Position numbers and translations under genes: made by a program
Shown: positions 13,797 through 61,449 of the stretch, piece after piece
Layout: each line of letters opens with the position of its first letter
Position numbering within the stretch: position 1 is the first letter of the stretch
Notes under the pieces: model-generated
Database searches by the model: none
What the model saw: only the letters and a program-made list of their open reading frames with translations
Told to the model about the DNA's origin: nothing
Source of the DNA: Aquiflexum gelatinilyticum
Lineage (GTDB): Bacteria; Bacteroidota; Bacteroidia; Cytophagales; Cyclobacteriaceae
DNA: 64,000 bases
Reading direction: 5' to 3'
NCBI RefSeq assembly: GCF_024741135.1
Contig: NZ_JANSUY010000002.1
Location: 186,001 to 250,000, forward strand

Positions 13797-13933
13797 AGGG
13801 TTAGGGGGGTTGGAAGGGTTGTCAGATTTGCGTTGTCGGGTTGTAGGGTTGTAATGGTTATAATGGTTGTAGTTGTTGTAATGGTTGTAATGGTTGTCGG
13901 GTTATCTGCTGCGCGTTGTCGGGTTGAGGATTT
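13797..13933. repeat. tandem TTGTAATGG / TTGTCGGG-type microsatellite
   Basis: From 13806 to about 13926 the plus strand is built from short GT-rich units (variants of GGTTGTAAT, GGTTGTCG and GCTGCGCGTTGTCGGG). The same units recur at 22283-22600. It separates rbsK from the ADP-ribosylglycohydrolase gene and has no coding character. Confidence 0.75.
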
Positions 13934-22282: not shown

Positions 22283-22600
22283 TTTAGAGTGGTTGTAGTT
22301 ATTGTCTGCTTCGCGTTGTCGGGTTCTCGGGTTGGAATTGTTGTAGTGGTTGTAGTGGTTGTAATTGTTGTAACTGTTGTAACTGTTGTGAACTTACCTG
22401 CTGCGCGTTGTCAGGACTGCAAACTGAAAACTGAGACTGCATACTGGAATTGTTGTCAGCTTCGCGTTGTCGGGTTGTCAAGTTGTCGGGTTGTCTGAGG
22501 CGCGTGGTTAGGTCTGCAAACTGAAAACTGAGACTGCATACTGAAATTGTTGTCTGCTGCGCGTTGTCGGGTTGTCGGGTTGTAGGGTTGTCGGGTTGTG
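22283..22600. repeat. GT-rich microsatellite with 65-bp direct repeat
   Basis: Short units of GTTGTAGTG and GTTGTCGGG type run through this stretch. Within it, 22415-22479 is repeated nearly exactly at 22512-22576 (65 bp, offset 97). The repeat carries TGCAAACTGAAAACTGAGAC followed by the CGCGTTGTCGGGTTGTC unit. The same units appear at 13806-13926. Apparent frames here encode only Thr/Gln/Pro-rich repeat peptides. Confidence 0.8.
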
Positions 22601-54275: not shown

Positions 54276-54698
54276 ATGGCAATTCTTTTTTTTGAAGAAG
54301 ACATAAAATTTTCCCTTCCGGAAAAGAACAAAAAGAAAAAATGGTTAAAAGAAATAGCCAATCTCGAAGGATTTAAAATTGGAGAACTTAATTACATTTT
54401 TTGTTCCGATGAATACCTTTATCAAATCAATGTTGACTTCTTGAACCATAAAACCTACACAGACATTATTACCTTTGACAATTCAGAAAAAGAAAATCTA
54501 ATAGAAGGAGACATTTTTGTCAGTGTAGACCGAATTAAAGATAATGCCATTAAAGAAAGTGTGTCCTTTGAAAAAGAACTCTCAAGGGTTATGAGCCATG
54601 GGATTTTGCATTTAATGGGATATAAGGACAAAAGAGAAGAAGATATAATCAGTATGAGAAATATGGAAAATAAAGCCATTTCTTTACTGGACAAATGA
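54276..54698 (+). CDS. ybeY: endoribonuclease YbeY
   Basis: 140 residues, typical YbeY length. It has LNHKTYTDIITFDN and the metal-site segment SHGILHLMGYKDKREED; the third His of the usual HxxxHxxGYDH is replaced by a KDK form, which I believe is normal in Bacteroidota. YbeY matures the 3' end of 16S rRNA. It ends three bases before the first parS site. Confidence 0.93.
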   Translation: MAILFFEEDIKFSLPEKNKKKKWLKEIANLEGFKIGELNYIFCSDEYLYQINVDFLNHKTYTDIITFDNSEKENLIEGDIFVSVDRIKDNAIKESVSFEKELSRVMSHGILHLMGYKDKREEDIISMRNMENKAISLLDK

Positions 54699-54700
54699 AA

Positions 54701-54716
54701 CGTTCCACGTGAAACA
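54701..54716. promoter_or_regulatory. parS site 1 (ParB-binding palindrome)
   Basis: CGTTCCACGTGAAACA differs from the Bacillus parS TGTTCCACGTGAAACA at only the first base. The CACGTG core is intact. It is directly after ybeY and 57 bases before mnmG. The match to a long, known palindrome is unlikely by chance. Confidence 0.9.
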
Positions 54717-54740: not shown

Positions 54741-54756
54741 AGTTCCACGTGGAACA
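54741..54756. promoter_or_regulatory. parS site 2 (ParB-binding palindrome)
   Basis: AGTTCCACGTGGAACA has the same core with perfectly paired GTTCCAC/GTGGAAC arms. Its centre is 40 bp from site 1 and its end 17 bases before the mnmG start. It may also affect mnmG transcription. Confidence 0.9.
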
Positions 54757-54773: not shown

Positions 54774-56639
54774 ATGTTTCCAATATATGATGTGATCGTT
54801 GTAGGAGCAGGGCATGCAGGCTGTGAAGCTGCGCATGCAGCAGCAAAGATGGGTTCCAAAGTCCTTCTTTGTACAATGAATATGAATACCATTGCACAAA
54901 TGTCATGTAACCCGGCAATGGGTGGCGTAGCAAAAGGTCAAATTGTGAGGGAGATTGACGCCTTAGGAGGAATGTCAGGGATAATTTCTGACAAATCCAT
55001 GATCCAATTCAGGATGTTGAATAGGTCCAAAGGTCCTGCTATGTGGTCTCCAAGATCGCAAAATGATAGAATGTTATTTGCAGAAGAATGGAGATTGGCT
55101 CTTGAACAAACACCCAATGTTGATTTTTGGCAAGAAATGATAAGTGGGTTATTAATTAAAGACAATAAAGCTGTTGGAGTAAGGACAGGAATTGGGATAG
55201 AAATCCAATCCAAATCAGTGGTTCTTACCAATGGAACATTTTTAAATGGCATAATTCATATCGGAGAAAAACAATTTGGGGGAGGAAGAACAGGAGAAGC
55301 AGCGGCAAAAGGAATAACCGAACAACTCGTCCAATTGGGTTTTGAAGCGGGAAGAATGAAAACTGGAACACCTCCAAGGGTTGATGGACGTTCATTGGAT
55401 TACAGCAAAATGGAAGTACAGTACGGGGATGAAAACCCTGAGAAGTTTTCCTTCTCTGACGCTACATCAACTTTAAAAAATCAAAGAACATGTTGGATTA
55501 CCTATACCAACAAAGAGGTACACAATACACTAGAAACAGGTTTTGACAGATCCCCTATGTTCAATGGCAGAATCCAAGGTCTTGGACCAAGGTATTGCCC
55601 ATCTATAGAGGATAAAATCAACAGATTTGCCGAAAGAGAAAGACATCAGATATTTGTAGAACCTGAAGGATGGAACACTGTTGAAATGTACATCAACGGT
55701 TTCTCCACTTCATTGCCTGAGGATGTACAATACCAAGCTTTAAGGAAAATACCAGGTTTTGAAAATGCTAAAATGTTTAGACCAGGTTATGCCATAGAAT
55801 ATGATTTCTTTCCCCCAACACAATTAAAACTAAGCTTAGAGACACATTTAATAGAAAACCTATTCTTTGCCGGACAAATCAACGGAACGACAGGCTATGA
55901 AGAAGCCGCCTCCCAAGGATTGATGGCGGGAATAAATGCTTCTAGGAAAGTACATGAAAGGGATCCATTTGTTTTAAAAAGATCCGACGCATATATAGGT
56001 GTATTGATAGATGATCTGATCAATAAAGGGACTGAGGAACCATACAGGATGTTTACATCTAGAGCCGAATTCAGATTATTGCTACGTCAGGACAATGCAG
56101 ACTTGAGATTAACCCAAATGGGTCATAAAATTGGTTTGGCAGATGATACGAGACTAGAAAAAATGCAGGACAAAAAATCTGATACAGCTAAACTGATCAA
56201 TGATTTAAAACAAAAAAAATTGTCTCCTGATATAATTAATGAAGGCTTAGAAGGATTTGAAACAGCGACCATTAAAGAAAAGGTCACGGTTGAAAAGCTT
56301 TTGAAAAGGCCTCAAATTGGATTAACAGAAATTATGGACTTAGACCAGGACATAAAAAATTATCTTTCCAAATATAAAAAAGAGGTTCTAGAACAGGCAG
56401 AAATTCAAATCAAATATGACAGCTATATAGAAAAAGAACAGCAAATGGTAGAAAAATTGAATAATATGGAAGACTATAGAATCCCGATACAATTTGATTA
56501 TCTAACAATAACTGCACTTTCGGCTGAAGGAAAACAGAAATTAAATAAAATAAAACCCGAAACACTCGGTCAAGCATCAAGAATTAGTGGTGTGACCCCT
56601 GCAGACCTTTCTATTCTCACCGTTTATTTAGGAAGATAA
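54774..56639 (+). CDS. mnmG: tRNA uridine-5-carboxymethylaminomethyl enzyme MnmG (GidA)
   Basis: 621 residues, the usual MnmG length. The FAD site VVGAGHAGCEAAHAAAKMGS opens the protein. Later marks are PAMGGVAKGQIVREIDALGG, then KTGTPPRVDGRSLD, and a C-terminal helical domain with RSDAYIGVLIDDLINKGT. With MnmE it modifies the wobble uridine of tRNAs. The gene sits just after two parS sites and near the putative origin, a place where gidA is often found. Its stop overlaps the next start (TAATG). Confidence 0.97.
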   Translation: MFPIYDVIVVGAGHAGCEAAHAAAKMGSKVLLCTMNMNTIAQMSCNPAMGGVAKGQIVREIDALGGMSGIISDKSMIQFRMLNRSKGPAMWSPRSQNDRMLFAEEWRLALEQTPNVDFWQEMISGLLIKDNKAVGVRTGIGIEIQSKSVVLTNGTFLNGIIHIGEKQFGGGRTGEAAAKGITEQLVQLGFEAGRMKTGTPPRVDGRSLDYSKMEVQYGDENPEKFSFSDATSTLKNQRTCWITYTNKEVHNTLETGFDRSPMFNGRIQGLGPRYCPSIEDKINRFAERERHQIFVEPEGWNTVEMYINGFSTSLPEDVQYQALRKIPGFENAKMFRPGYAIEYDFFPPTQLKLSLETHLIENLFFAGQINGTTGYEEAASQGLMAGINASRKVHERDPFVLKRSDAYIGVLIDDLINKGTEEPYRMFTSRAEFRLLLRQDNADLRLTQMGHKIGLADDTRLEKMQDKKSDTAKLINDLKQKKLSPDIINEGLEGFETATIKEKVTVEKLLKRPQIGLTEIMDLDQDIKNYLSKYKKEVLEQAEIQIKYDSYIEKEQQMVEKLNNMEDYRIPIQFDYLTITALSAEGKQKLNKIKPETLGQASRISGVTPADLSILTVYLGR

Positions 56640-57538
56640 TGTCACAGGAAAGATTAAACAAATGCCCACTATGTAAAAGTGGGCTTTTTCTTAATCATTT
56701 GGAAGTTAAAGATTTTTCAATAAGCAAGGAAAATTTCTTGTTGTGTAAATGTTCATCTTGCCAATTGATATTTACAAACCCCCGACCGGATAAAGAAAGC
56801 ATAACACCATATTATCAATCGGAAGACTACGTTTCTCACCAAAACAAAACCACAAATTTCACAAACCTACTTTATAAATGGGTAAGGAATATCACTATCA
56901 GAAAGAAGGTAAAATTGCTAAATAAATATACTGAAGGAAATAAAACACTCCTTGATTACGGATGCGGAACAGGATATTTCTTAGCAGAAGCAAAAAAATC
57001 AGGATGGAAAACTCAAGGAATAGAACCGAATAAAACAGCGAGAAAAATATCCAAAAGCAAAAAACTTAAAATTAAGGGCAAACTTGAGGAGATCGAAAAA
57101 GATACTAAATTCAATGCAATCAGTCTTTATCACGTTCTTGAACACATACATAACCTGAGAAAAACAGGGAAAAAAATTGTGGACTTATTGGAGGAAAACG
57201 GTACAATCTTTATTGCAGTTCCAAATAACAATTCCAATGATGCCAAACAGTATGGCACTTTCTGGGCAGCATTGGATGTACCAAGACACCTGTATCATTT
57301 CAATCAAGATACAATTAAGGTTTTTGCAGAAAAAATGGGGCTCAAAATTGTAGCTATTGAGCCAATGAAATTTGATAGCTATTATGTTTCAATCTTATCT
57401 GAAAACTACCTAAACCCTAACAAAGGAACAATAAGCAAATTGATAAACGCTTTTATAAATGGTTATAAATCAAATACTTGGGCCAAAAAAAACAATTATA
57501 ATTACTCAAGCTTATTGTTTATTTTAAAGAAAAAATGA
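56639..57538 (+). CDS. zinc-ribbon SAM-dependent methyltransferase
   Basis: 299 residues. An N-terminal CxxC pair (CPLCKSG ... CKCSSCQLIF) precedes the methyltransferase domain with motif I LLDYGCGTGYFLAEAKKSGW, then NAISLYHVLEHIHNL and a PRHLYHF segment. It belongs to the Methyltransf_23-like group common with cell-envelope sugars. It shares bases with mnmG (TAATG) and overlaps the next gene by ATGA. Confidence 0.87.
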   Translation: MSQERLNKCPLCKSGLFLNHLEVKDFSISKENFLLCKCSSCQLIFTNPRPDKESITPYYQSEDYVSHQNKTTNFTNLLYKWVRNITIRKKVKLLNKYTEGNKTLLDYGCGTGYFLAEAKKSGWKTQGIEPNKTARKISKSKKLKIKGKLEEIEKDTKFNAISLYHVLEHIHNLRKTGKKIVDLLEENGTIFIAVPNNNSNDAKQYGTFWAALDVPRHLYHFNQDTIKVFAEKMGLKIVAIEPMKFDSYYVSILSENYLNPNKGTISKLINAFINGYKSNTWAKKNNYNYSSLLFILKKK

Positions 57539-59220
57539 AACATTCAAATTACCTATTAGGCATAATATTACTTTTTACTGTCGTTTCATGTGCGAAACAA
57601 GGAACGCCAATGGGAGGACCCAAAGATGAAGATCCACCAAAACTTTTATCCATAAATCCATCAAATGAAAGCACAAATGTCAAACCCTCAATTATAGAAC
57701 TTGAATTTGACGAATATGTAAAAGCGGAAACACCAAACAAACAAATTATCATAACTCCAAGAATCAATAAAGATGAAATGGAGGTAACGACAAATAAGAA
57801 TAGAGTAATTATTAACCTAAACCAAGAACTTGAAGACAGTACAACTTATGTATTTAACTTCCAAAAATCCATAAAAGACATCACCGAAAACAACATTCCG
57901 GACAACCTCAAACTTGTTTTTTCGACGGGACCCAACATCGACAGCCTTAGTTTTTCAGGAAACGTTTCATACATTCTCCCCCAAAAACAGAAGAATATTA
58001 CCGATGTTTTGGTAGGGCTATATGCCGAAAATGACACAACCAATGTTCTTACCGCCACACCCTATTATATTGGACAAACCGATTCAATAGGAAATTTCAA
58101 TCTCAGCAATATAAAAGCAGGGAATTATAGAGCATATGCTTGGCATGACCAAAACAACTCTTTAAAAGCAGAAGAAAAACAAGAGGAATACGGATTTATA
58201 TCTGATACAATCAGCATTTCAGAAAACGTAACAGATGCGAAACTCTACCTTTCAAAGGCGGACTTATCTGCATTCAAAATTAACAGAGCAAGTGCATCAG
58301 GGCAGAATTTCGACATCTATCTCAGCAAATACCCAACAGACATCATCATTGATCATCAGGATATAAACAAAAGCTTGTTTTACAGGCAAAATGAAAAAAC
58401 AATTAGATTATACCATACAAGTATAATCAATGACAGCACAGCTGTAAAATTGATGTTAAGAGACTCTGTTGGATTCAAACTTGATACAATCGTTTATGCA
58501 AAATTTGAGGAAAGTGACAGAAAAAATGAAAAGTTGGAAACCACTGTAAAAGCCAAAAGAAACTTTTTGAAAGAAATTGAAGCAGAAATTAAATTCAACA
58601 AACCAATAAACAATGTAAATTATGATTCACTATATATAAAATACGACAGTGCTTCTTACATTCCGATAAAACCTGAAATGCTTTCATTTAAAGACAGCTT
58701 GGACAGAACATTGATTTCCATCGCAGTAAATGTCCCAGACTCCTTAAAACAAGAAGAATACACCTTATATGCGATGGACTCAACATTCCAAGATATAGAA
58801 GGGGAATTCAATACAACAAAAATTGAAAACCTATTCAGAAAACTTGACCCAGAAACTTTGGCTGAAGAAATAAAGATTACAGTAAACACCGAAAACTTAC
58901 CAATCATAGTCCAGATTATTGACAAAAAAGATGAAGTAGTAGCAGAACAATACTTAACTGAAACAAACGTAGCAATATTCAAAAATTTAGAAGCAGCTAC
59001 ATATTATATCAGAGCAATCTTGGATTTAAATAAAAACAGACGATGGGATACTTCCAATATGAATGAAAATCGACAAGCAGAACCAATATATTACCTAGAA
59101 AATAAAGAAAGCGATAATCCAAAAGACACAATAATTAGAGGGGGATGGTCACTTGATGTCACGATAGACCCTCAAAAAATACCTGGAATACCAAAAATTA
59201 AAGAAAATATTATGAAATAA
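57535..59220 (+). CDS. Ig-like (Big_5 type) domain lipoprotein
   Basis: 561 residues. A signal peptide ends VVSC, a lipobox. The mature N-terminus has a GTPMGGPKDEDPPKLLS pattern followed by an Ig-like Big_5 domain (NPSNESTNVKPSIIELEFDE, TTYVFNF, LKLVFSTG). The middle and C-terminal parts are beta-rich with carboxypeptidase-like strands (GNFNLSNIKAGNYRAYAWHD; YYIRAILDLNKNRRWD). It is conserved downstream of mnmG in this family, as far as I recall. It is exported; function unknown. It overlaps the methyltransferase by four bases. Confidence 0.82.
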   Translation: MKHSNYLLGIILLFTVVSCAKQGTPMGGPKDEDPPKLLSINPSNESTNVKPSIIELEFDEYVKAETPNKQIIITPRINKDEMEVTTNKNRVIINLNQELEDSTTYVFNFQKSIKDITENNIPDNLKLVFSTGPNIDSLSFSGNVSYILPQKQKNITDVLVGLYAENDTTNVLTATPYYIGQTDSIGNFNLSNIKAGNYRAYAWHDQNNSLKAEEKQEEYGFISDTISISENVTDAKLYLSKADLSAFKINRASASGQNFDIYLSKYPTDIIIDHQDINKSLFYRQNEKTIRLYHTSIINDSTAVKLMLRDSVGFKLDTIVYAKFEESDRKNEKLETTVKAKRNFLKEIEAEIKFNKPINNVNYDSLYIKYDSASYIPIKPEMLSFKDSLDRTLISIAVNVPDSLKQEEYTLYAMDSTFQDIEGEFNTTKIENLFRKLDPETLAEEIKITVNTENLPIIVQIIDKKDEVVAEQYLTETNVAIFKNLEAATYYIRAILDLNKNRRWDTSNMNENRQAEPIYYLENKESDNPKDTIIRGGWSLDVTIDPQKIPGIPKIKENIMK

Positions 59221-59691
59221 TTGTAGATAACCTAAACAAAACATGTGCATAAGTTCCCACAACTTGGGTATAAAAGGAGACTTATCAATAACAACCAAAA
59301 TTTGAACCATCAAAAAATTGGACAAAGGGAATAACCCATCATTCATCCACAGTCATTCACAATTACAGACACAGCAAAGAACACACATTTATATATTTTC
59401 ATTTTCCCACAACAATAAATCCTTTTTTTCAATACGATTGAAATTCAACAAATTAAAGTAAAAACGACTGTGGATTAAAAGTGGAGAAAGTGATGAAAAC
59501 TAAACACAAATATGTGGATTACTTCAACCAGATTTTTTATCCACAAATCCACACCTTAATAACAACAGTAGTTTTATTTAAATAAATAATATATTAAATA
59601 TATAAAGGTGTGGAAAATTCTTGAATTCCCGTTTTTTGGTTTACTGCAAGCTTTTATCTAATTTCAAGAACCTTATTAACCCAAGATAATC
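59221..59691. other. candidate replication origin (oriC)
   Basis: A 471-bp gene-free, AT-rich stretch. DnaA-box-like sites: TTATCCACA at 59537-59545 (perfect), TGTGCATAA at 59244-59252 (TTATGCACA on the other strand, fitting TTATNCACA), and one-mismatch sites at 59343-59351, 59469-59477, 59513-59521 and 59609-59617. An AT-only tract (59571-59606) is a plausible DNA-unwinding element. parS sites and mnmG lie within 5 kb. TTATCCACA also occurs singly within genes here, so clustering is the argument. Confidence 0.68.
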
Positions 59692-61449
59692 ATGCAAATC
59701 CACAGACTCTTCGACCTGATCAATTTCCAAATTGCAACATATGACAAGCCAGTTGCCTTAGCCCAAAAAATCAATGGTTCTTGGAAAACGTATTCAAGCA
59801 GGGATTTAAAAAAAATAATTGATAATATCAGTTTGGCATTTTTAAAAAATGGCATCAAAAAAAATGAAAAAGTTGCCATTATATCAAACAACAGACCTGA
59901 ATGGAATTTTATTGACCTTGCATTGCAACAGATCGGTGCGATTTCAGTACCCATGTATCCAACCATTTCAGCCGAAGATTACAATTACATTTTCCATCAC
60001 GCTGAAGTAAAAAAAATATTTGTGGGTGATGAAGAAATCTTCCAAAAAGCCAAGGAAGGATCTGCTGACATGGAAGCGCAGATAATTTCGTTTGACAAAA
60101 TACAGGGTTGTGACTATTGGGAGGATTTTATGGCAATGGGTGAGGATGGAGACCTTGCAGAGCTTGAAGACATCAAAGACAAAATAAAATATGAAGACAT
60201 TTTTACAATCATCTATACTTCAGGAACTACCGGTAGACCAAAGGGTGTGATGCTTAGCCACTCCAATGTCATCAGTAATCTTTATGCTATTGAAGATAGG
60301 ATGATTATCCCTAGAGGAGAAGCCAAAGCGCTAAGCTTTCTTCCGTTATGTCACATCTATGAACGAACGGGATCATTTTGCTTTATGTTTATGGGAGTAT
60401 CCATTTACTATGCAGAAAGCATGGAAGCAATTGGAGAAAACCTCAAAGAAGTACAGCCGCATATTTTCAATACTGTTCCAAGGCTTTTGGAAAAAGTCTA
60501 TGACAAGATTGTTTCCAAAGGATATGAACTTACAGGTGTAAAAAAATCTCTTTTCTTTTGGGCGTTAAATCTTGGTTTGAAATATGAACCAAACAAAAAC
60601 CAAGGCTCTTTTTATAATTTTCAGTTGAAACTTGCCAATAAAATAATTTTCAGCAAATGGCGTGAGGCATTGGGAGGCAATGTGATGCAGATCAATTCCG
60701 GTGCTTCTGCATTGCAGCCAAGATTGGCAAGGGTGTTTTGGAGTGCAGGTATTCCTGTCAACGAAGGTTATGGACTTACTGAAACTTCCCCTGTTGTTTC
60801 TGCCTCTATCTGTAACCATCAGGATATCCGGATTGGCATGGTAGGGAAAATCGTCAAAGACGTCGAAGTCAAAATAGCCGCTGATGGAGAAATTTTGGTC
60901 AAAGGTCCCAATATCATGCAAGGATATTACAAGCAGCCTGAATTGACTGCTGAAGTATTAGAGCAAGATGGATGGTTTCATACGGGAGATATAGGTGAAC
61001 TTCATGAAGGTAATTACCTCAAGATTACTGATAGGAAAAAGGAAATGTTTAAAACATCCGGAGGTAAATACATCGCCCCTCAGCCAATGGAAAACAAGTT
61101 CAAGGAATCATCTTTGATTGAACAGGTTTTGGTAGTAGGGGAAAATAAAAATTACCCGGCGGCTTTGATTGTTCCAAGTATTTTGGGTCTTCAGGATTGG
61201 TGCAGACACAAGGATATTCCTTATACCACTGATGTTGAAATGCTTCAAAAACCCGAAATTCTTGATAAATTTCAAAAGGAAGTAGATCATCTCAATAAAT
61301 ACTTTGGCAAATGGGAGCAAATCAAAAAGTTCAAAGTTCTGACACAACAATGGACTATCGAATCAGGTGAACTTACTCCAACCATGAAGTTAAAAAGGAA
61401 AGTAATCCACCAAAAATTTGCTAAAGAAATCGATTCCTTATACGCTTAA
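59692..61449 (+). CDS. long-chain acyl-CoA synthetase (AMP-binding)
   Basis: 585 residues. The adenylation signature YTSGTTGRPKGVMLSHSN is complete, followed by GYGLTETSPVVSASI and the hinge GWFHTGDIGELHEG / ITDRKKEMFKTSGGKYI. This fits the long-chain group that makes acyl-CoA from fatty acid, CoA and ATP. It is followed by a perfect terminator, then by the MarR/FadN pair, so the three serve fatty-acid breakdown, though this gene is separately transcribed. Confidence 0.93.
   Translation: MQIHRLFDLINFQIATYDKPVALAQKINGSWKTYSSRDLKKIIDNISLAFLKNGIKKNEKVAIISNNRPEWNFIDLALQQIGAISVPMYPTISAEDYNYIFHHAEVKKIFVGDEEIFQKAKEGSADMEAQIISFDKIQGCDYWEDFMAMGEDGDLAELEDIKDKIKYEDIFTIIYTSGTTGRPKGVMLSHSNVISNLYAIEDRMIIPRGEAKALSFLPLCHIYERTGSFCFMFMGVSIYYAESMEAIGENLKEVQPHIFNTVPRLLEKVYDKIVSKGYELTGVKKSLFFWALNLGLKYEPNKNQGSFYNFQLKLANKIIFSKWREALGGNVMQINSGASALQPRLARVFWSAGIPVNEGYGLTETSPVVSASICNHQDIRIGMVGKIVKDVEVKIAADGEILVKGPNIMQGYYKQPELTAEVLEQDGWFHTGDIGELHEGNYLKITDRKKEMFKTSGGKYIAPQPMENKFKESSLIEQVLVVGENKNYPAALIVPSILGLQDWCRHKDIPYTTDVEMLQKPEILDKFQKEVDHLNKYFGKWEQIKKFKVLTQQWTIESGELTPTMKLKRKVIHQKFAKEIDSLYA

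Follow-up and report, generated by a model that had tools for sequence, protein, structure and literature searches.

Whether titration of DnaA on the chromosome acts as a replication timer has been debated for decades. In Bacillus subtilis and Streptomyces, short and intergenic box clusters outside oriC are thought to limit initiation; the box nests described below likewise lie outside oriC, but mostly within genes. According to the initiator-titration model, the early replication of boxes close to oriC brings down the level of free DnaA just after initiation (PMC5835720, PMC12371093). Olivi et al. (2025) report boxes to be over-represented near oriC in E. coli and Salmonella against uniform as well as permuted-motif nulls and propose titration, noting that experimental evidence had been lacking until their own E. 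coli work (PMC12371093). The enrichment in these species is described as broad, appearing in windows of 2-10 centisomes and with partly degenerate motifs (PMC12371093). In addition, E. coli harbours datA, DARS1 and DARS2, box loci off oriC that affect initiation and that are presented as compact and non-coding, with an IHF site in the case of datA (PMC5835720, PMC4585315). For Bacteroidota, neither DnaA-box nests nor titration were found in the open-licence literature, among the matches listed.

The window analysed here is a 64-kb stretch of DNA (C12:186001-250000) from the 4,999,169-bp draft genome, in 57 contigs, of a freshwater bacterium of the family Cyclobacteriaceae, order Cytophagales (G000). 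A sequence-only reading had proposed an intergenic gap in it as the chromosomal replication origin. Boxes were scored against the consensus TTATCCACA with at most one mismatch, unless called perfect. The relatives used for comparison include four complete genomes (G114, G085, G096, and G047; the first two in a single contig), as well as G064, which belongs to the same genus as G000, whereas G085 represents a different one.

The predicted origin

The gap (Table 1) contains seven boxes, one above the number given by the sequence-only reading, compared to a mean of 0.30 and a maximum of three in 1000 dinucleotide shuffles, none of which reached seven, and it is the densest 471-bp box stretch of the window (scanned in 10-bp steps). 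The single perfect box that had been pointed out is present (59537, plus strand), as is an A/T-only tract, at 35 instead of about 36 bp. The least stable 50-mer of the entire window begins at 59557. Visual inspection of the A/T-rich tract shows A-centred triplets on both of its strands, but no clear DnaA-trio run as described in the literature (for the polarity of DnaA-trios, see PMC6669920).

Table 1. Coordinates of the features discussed, in positions of the window.
Feature	Position	Strand	Remarks
Nest 1	9085-32034		17 perfect TTATCCACA (10 +, 7 -), within ordinary genes and the gaps between them; 27-50 kb upstream of oriC
ybeY	54276-54698	+	PF02130 / TIGR00043
parS-like site GTTCCACGTGAAAC	54702-54715		sequence
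parS-like palindrome GTTCCACGTGGAAC	54742-54755		ybeY-mnmG gap; carries the word TTCCACGTGGAA
mnmG/gidA	54774-56639	+	TIGR00136, 857 bits
Ig-like (Big_5) protein gene	57535-59220	+	PF13205
Predicted oriC	59221-59691		471-bp gap between Ig-like protein gene and acyl-CoA synthetase gene
DnaA box TTATCTACA	59222-59230	-	1 mismatch; sequence scan
DnaA box TTATGCACA	59244-59252	-	1 mismatch; sequence scan
DnaA box TCATCCACA	59343-59351	+	1 mismatch; sequence scan
DnaA box TAATCCACA	59469-59477	-	1 mismatch; sequence scan
DnaA box TAATCCACA	59513-59521	-	1 mismatch; sequence scan
Core pair	59537-59553	+	perfect TTATCCACA overlapped by AAATCCACA (2 mismatches), then conserved CCTTAATAAC
Putative DNA unwinding element	59572-59606		35-bp A/T-only tract, longest A/T run of the gap
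DnaA box TTTTCCACA	59609-59617	-	beyond the A/T tract; GTGGataa in the 30-gap consensus
Acyl-CoA synthetase (AMP-binding) gene	59692-61449	+	PF00501

Orthologous origins were located via the upstream Ig-like gene, which was matched in 138 of 148 family genomes, and the best-scoring loci of these 138 provided a set of 30 gaps (own genome and 29 relatives), the first and last blocks of whose alignment were compared. Conservation of the boxes in relatives had been set as a check beforehand and was found for the core: all 30 gaps have, with few changes, TTATC.ACAaATCCACAcc.TAATAac and an A/T-rich tract behind it, the core pair being the best-conserved stretch in the compared parts of the alignment. 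Several outer boxes come back at similar offsets across the orthologous gaps. The number of boxes per origin ranges from 2 to 10 among the 30, and the cluster is weak in some relatives, including G114. The acyl-CoA synthetase gene follows in 21 of the 30 loci and was not detected in the other nine (tblastn, within a 1.5-kb flank). In seven out of seven more distant family genomes, for which stretches of 11-20 kb were inspected, the densest box cluster lies directly downstream of the Ig-like gene and comprises 3-12 boxes per 500 bp, with G028 as the weakest case.

A turn of GC skew at the gap, as expected of an origin, is seen in two relatives, the contig itself giving no clear signal. For each of the two single-contig genomes, skew was sampled in 20 stretches, each 20 kb long. 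In G114, it is negative at 3.80-4.67 Mb and 0-0.97 Mb and positive at 0.975-3.42 Mb (the stretches next to the switch being 950-970 kb and 975-995 kb), with the orthologous gap at 983.8 kb, while the opposite flip falls between 3.42 and 3.80 Mb, an interval that brackets the antipode. The sign change is also seen in G085 (locus at 1.183 Mb), which resembles G114 but is noisy, with several near-zero or contrary stretches. On the 510-kb contig of the own genome, cumulative skew shows no clear minimum at the gap (+0.008 to its left, +0.029 to its right).

The gene order around the gap is ybeY, a pair of parS-like sites, mnmG, a methyltransferase gene, the Ig-like protein gene, the gap, the acyl-CoA synthetase gene, and a MarR regulator gene; both genes next to the gap run in the same direction, as had been cautioned. 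The two sites between ybeY and mnmG are parS-like. The word TTCCACGTGGAA in the second of them is single in the own genome, 4.5 kb upstream of the gap, and was found in five of nine genomes searched, at one or two places each: it adjoins the locus in G000, G114, G047, and G096 and lies about 26 kb from it in G049, whereas it was not found in the other four (G064, G121, G085, and G010). A further caveat, namely that dnaA is absent from the window, is likewise correct: the gene resides on contig C3 and, in G114 and G085, about 1 Mb from the origin locus. One DnaA with a domain-IV match above the Pfam cut-off was detected in each of 20 out of 20 genomes searched, and that of the own genome contains the stretch GGRDHSTVIHA, presumably the signature of DNA binding by DnaA. 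In three of the 20 genomes (G085, G047, and G028), the record begins no more than about 1.5 kb from dnaA. Records beginning at dnaA start about 1-1.4 Mb off the predicted origin, and the assumption that dnaA marks the origin would mislead in Cyclobacteriaceae.

Because of the skew switch in two relatives, the conserved core with its A/T tract, and the adjacent parS-like sites, and with the box density pointing the same way, the gap is read as oriC and is very probably the chromosomal replication origin of this bacterium. In type it is ordinary, that is, another DnaA-dependent bacterial origin: it shares with these the clustering of boxes in either orientation, an A/T-rich tract towards which a box pair points, the skew switch (in relatives), and parS-like sites close by, and differs in its distance from dnaA and in consisting mostly of one-mismatch boxes. 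An oriC separate from dnaA is described for E. coli as well (PMC8287927).

Within the same order, the 0.7-Mb genome G280 has six perfect boxes in about 350 bp (C1:32612-32967) next to a long A/T-rich tract; they may possibly constitute its oriC, in this case with strong boxes.

Nests of perfect boxes

The sequence-only reading had also noted that the box recurs inside genes and had counted this against an origin. The recurrence itself is real, with 17 of the 18 perfect TTATCCACA of the window outside the gap, in what we call nest 1 (C12:195.1-218.0 kb). As counter-evidence, however, it fails, since this number is far above chance; the 17 boxes represent a feature of their own near the origin and not noise. 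A second nest of 20 perfect boxes is located at C14:70.8-90.0 kb (C14 is unplaced relative to oriC). Of these, 19 lie inside ORFs and extend over 19 kb, unlike the compact, non-coding datA and DARS, and they are found in either orientation and in more than one reading frame of genes that are unrelated to each other. The genome as a whole contains 99 TTATCCACA compared to 42 copies of the reversed word, very unevenly distributed: C12 outside the nest has 2 boxes in 266 kb (2.90 for the average permuted word), and TTATNCACA was not found in the 20 kb around dnaA. When the 1679 other permutations of the box letters were counted in the two stretches, which had been chosen for their density, the means were 0.25 (nest 1) and 0.23 (nest 2) and the maxima 8 and 10, so that none of the words reached 17 or 20. 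The top permuted word, TATCCACAT, is a one-base-shifted overlap of the box; this null is conservative because words overlapping the box are raised as well.

Perfect boxes also pile up around oriC in the four complete relatives, the origins of which were placed by marker-gene matches (with rounded genome lengths for G096 and G047). In the 250 kb to either side of oriC, 59 boxes were counted against a uniform expectation of 11.2 in G114, 25 against 10.7 in G085, 52 against 12.1 in G096, and 53 against 11.2 in G047, a 2.3- to 5.3-fold excess that is weakest in G085 and that refers to maps of the first 100 of 113 (G114), 128 (G085), 116 (G096), and 128 (G047) sites, the rest being at the far coordinate end. 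If a nest is defined as at least four boxes with gaps of at most 4 kb, nest centres are 13-279 kb from oriC in G114 (six nests), G096 (five), and G047 (four), and 101, 401, and 558 kb from it in G085 (three); altogether, 16 of the 18 nests lie within 280 kb. Their size varies from 1 to 26 kb, the larger ones having about one box per kb and up to 22 boxes in 24 kb. Far stretches are poor in boxes, with one in 280 kb of G114 and none in G096 or G047 (60 kb per genome). Two further genomes are less clear-cut: G082 has 19 boxes no further than 100 kb from oriC, two stretches 20-60 kb off accounting for 15 (3 of 1679 permuted words reach 19), and G036, as a weak case, has 11 within 100 kb on either side (8 of 1679 reach 11). 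A bias of box orientation with fork direction was sought in G000, G114, G096, and G047 and showed no consistent sign.

Nest and origin boxes differ in motif. Of 200 perfect boxes from nests and origin-proximal stretches, 68 % are directly preceded by C or G and 72 % have an A at the next position further upstream, and the extended motif A[C/G]TTATCCACA accounts for 112 of the 200, compared to 1216 of 12526 permuted words. The 30 origins, on the other hand, comprise 191 boxes with at most one mismatch, of which 15 are perfect, and 16 of the 30 origins are devoid of any perfect box; the extended form occurs in one of the 15. Judged by the match to the consensus, we read the nest boxes as strong and those of oriC as weak.

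Several other sequence features were observed along the way. The window contains nine copies of the G-rich repeat GTTGTCGGGTT, all on one strand and with a 97-bp tandem duplication (13832-13925 and 22315-22599). At C12:116021-116126 of the own genome, a compact element consists of two to three tandem boxes 10-21 bp apart and an inverted box at a distance of about 95-97 bp to the first. Copies within the family are found in the own genome, G114, G096, G047, and G085 and continue into the nearly conserved CTGTAAATGAG, and the box layout recurs in G219 and G196 from another family; the element is intergenic in G114 and syntenic between G114 and G096. Its layout makes it a candidate for a datA- or DARS-like element. 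Finally, a survey of 391 genomes of the order revealed that TTATCCACA exceeds the reversed word 2.5- to 3-fold in some genomes of other families (e. g., 297 vs. 109, 225 vs. 78, and 144 vs. 57 genome-wide; examples are G201, G289, and G162).

Conservation of the nests

Boxes of the nests stay identical between species where the flanks have diverged. When the expected number is adjusted to how similar the 90 flanking bases are, and with positions 1-59220 of the window as query, that is, without the oriC box, 10 of 11 aligned perfect boxes are identical in G064 (4.74 expected) and 12 of 12 in G121 (3.20 expected), the remaining sites of nest 1 falling in unaligned stretches. For nest 2 and its neighbours, 16 of 18 boxes are identical in G064 (3.55 expected) and, across the genus boundary, 6 of 13 in G085 (0.90 expected). 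One-mismatch boxes were rejected as nest members, as they showed no clear conservation excess in the same four comparisons, with 11 of 20 (6.79 expected), 6 of 16 (3.91), 2 of 16 (3.83), and 1 of 11 (0.91) kept.

A nest at the photolyase gene allowed for a broader view, and 42 of 80 photolyase loci were examined along with 40 control words. In 25 of the 42, 6-18 boxes were counted compared to 0.05-0.4 for control words; these belong to Cognataquiflexum, Aquiflexum, Belliella, Mongoliibacter, Cecembia lonarensis, Arthrospiribacter, and most Algoriphagus and kin. The other 17 have 0-2 boxes and comprise Cecembia rubra and Algoriphagus sediminis, which are box-poor although sister species have nests, Mongoliitalea, Nitritalea (short locus), Lunatibacter, Pleomorphovibrio, and Cyclobacterium, as well as Runella, Thermoflexibacter, three other Bacteroidota, and four cyanobacteria. 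Among codons for the same amino acid, 103 of 118 are identical in the 11 nearest loci under the boxes of the window's genome, compared to 1715 of 3407 elsewhere in the gene, counts that come from related sequences and thus do not represent independent events. In 15 Algoriphagus-like loci, which keep partly different box positions, the figures are 53 of 103 under the boxes of the window's genome and 1950 of 4208 outside, and in five genomes lacking a photolyase nest they are 3 of 18 and 587 of 1369. One box position is common to 25 of 32 photolyase genes and missing in the window's genome. Given this turnover of positions, single boxes therefore come and go while the density stays.

A fixed nest locus was considered and discarded: the photolyase nest is present in G000, G114, and G085, but not in G096, and a search of G047 yielded no photolyase match at E 1e-100. 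The photolyase locus of G096 (379 kb from oriC) has one or two boxes nearby while the nests of this genome lie in other genes, so that no single locus is bound to hold a nest. The idea that the boxes came with a mobile element or a repeat was dismissed as well, since no longer repeat is common to the 18 sites of the window when their 25-bp flanks are compared by eye and the genes with family matches are ordinary metabolic or regulatory ones.

Alternative explanations

Most of the boxes are in the coding sequence of ordinary genes, and one might take them for a by-product of codon usage, gene content, or local composition. This is hardly credible in view of their occurrence on both strands and in several frames of unrelated proteins, of permuted words that never attain the counts of the two own nests, of a conservation that exceeds the flank-matched expectation and extends to same-amino-acid codons in the 11 nearest loci, and of the non-random bases directly upstream. 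Similarly, a regulatory region that happens to carry DnaA boxes, with the true origin elsewhere, would agree with the indistinct skew of the own contig and with the distance of about 1 Mb that separates dnaA from the locus in G114 and G085; the skew switch at the orthologous site of two complete relatives, the conserved core and A/T tract, and the parS-like sites next to it make this very unlikely.

Greater weight is due to the idea that the gap is indeed oriC, but that the nests dock DnaA or a nucleoid protein in order to fold or anchor the origin domain rather than to titrate. Dispersed sites on both strands over up to 26 kb, around both oriC and parS, would suit such a structural domain, and nucleoid-occlusion proteins with their dispersed chromosomal sites are comparable. 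Since the nest motif is exactly the DnaA box that builds oriC, we nevertheless regard this as rather unlikely, while another protein that reads the same 9-mer might conceivably be the binder. It is more doubtful still that the nests act catalytically in the manner of E. coli datA and DARS, switching DnaA between its ATP and ADP forms. The compact element on C12 with its datA/DARS-like arrangement of tandem and inverted boxes speaks for such a system, yet it is separate from the nests, the larger of which are kilobases long, irregularly spaced, and mostly within genes (up to 26 kb), whereas datA and DARS are described as compact and non-coding (PMC5835720, PMC4585315). What remains common to both is that they are box loci off oriC.

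A putative titration domain

The reading that we favour is that of an oriC with box-guided opening, which is probably flanked by a domain near the origin where boxes within coding sequence titrate DnaA. In the gap, the box array would be bound by DnaA, which the core pair would guide onto the A/T tract, where the duplex would open, while segregation would make use of the parS-like sites at a distance of 4.5 kb to hold the origin. The titration domain would consist of dozens of perfect boxes, over half of them in the form A[C/G]TTATCCACA and mostly in ordinary genes. Nest boxes should fill with DnaA before those of oriC because they are closer to the consensus than oriC's own boxes, and oriC would fire only once newly made DnaA exceeds the nest boxes. 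Duplication of the nests right after initiation would then lower free DnaA again and block a second start. The anatomy, the clustering near the origin, the conservation at the nucleotide level, and the different motifs of nests and oriC are direct results of the sequence comparison; from these we infer DnaA as the binder, the perfect boxes as the stronger ones, and timing as the purpose.

By analogy, the nests fit the initiator-titration design, and dense, conserved in-gene boxes around an oriC with weak boxes come near to its textbook form. A known parallel is the E. coli and Salmonella region, with which they share the over-representation near oriC against uniform and permuted nulls (PMC12371093). 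Origin-proximal box enrichment was thus already known from E. coli; in contrast to the broad enrichment there, the present nests are tight and perfect, have an extended consensus, and are conserved site by site across species and genera in part of the family. In-gene nests that combine an extended consensus with conservation down to the codon were not found in the open-licence literature, among the matches listed.

For the bacterium, this means that the conserved nest sites may soak up DnaA and help to time each round of copying. For Hda, no match over the cut-off was obtained in five out of five genomes searched; in the control, one of 14 genomes exceeded it. We tentatively suggest, as a possibility with nearly as much for it as against it, that a large part of the Cyclobacteriaceae may control initiation mainly by stoichiometric titration of DnaA, in which dozens of high-affinity in-gene boxes around oriC, selected at synonymous sites, would outcompete a weak-box origin. 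More generally, the nests suggest that protein-coding sequence can carry a kilobase-scale layer of replication control.
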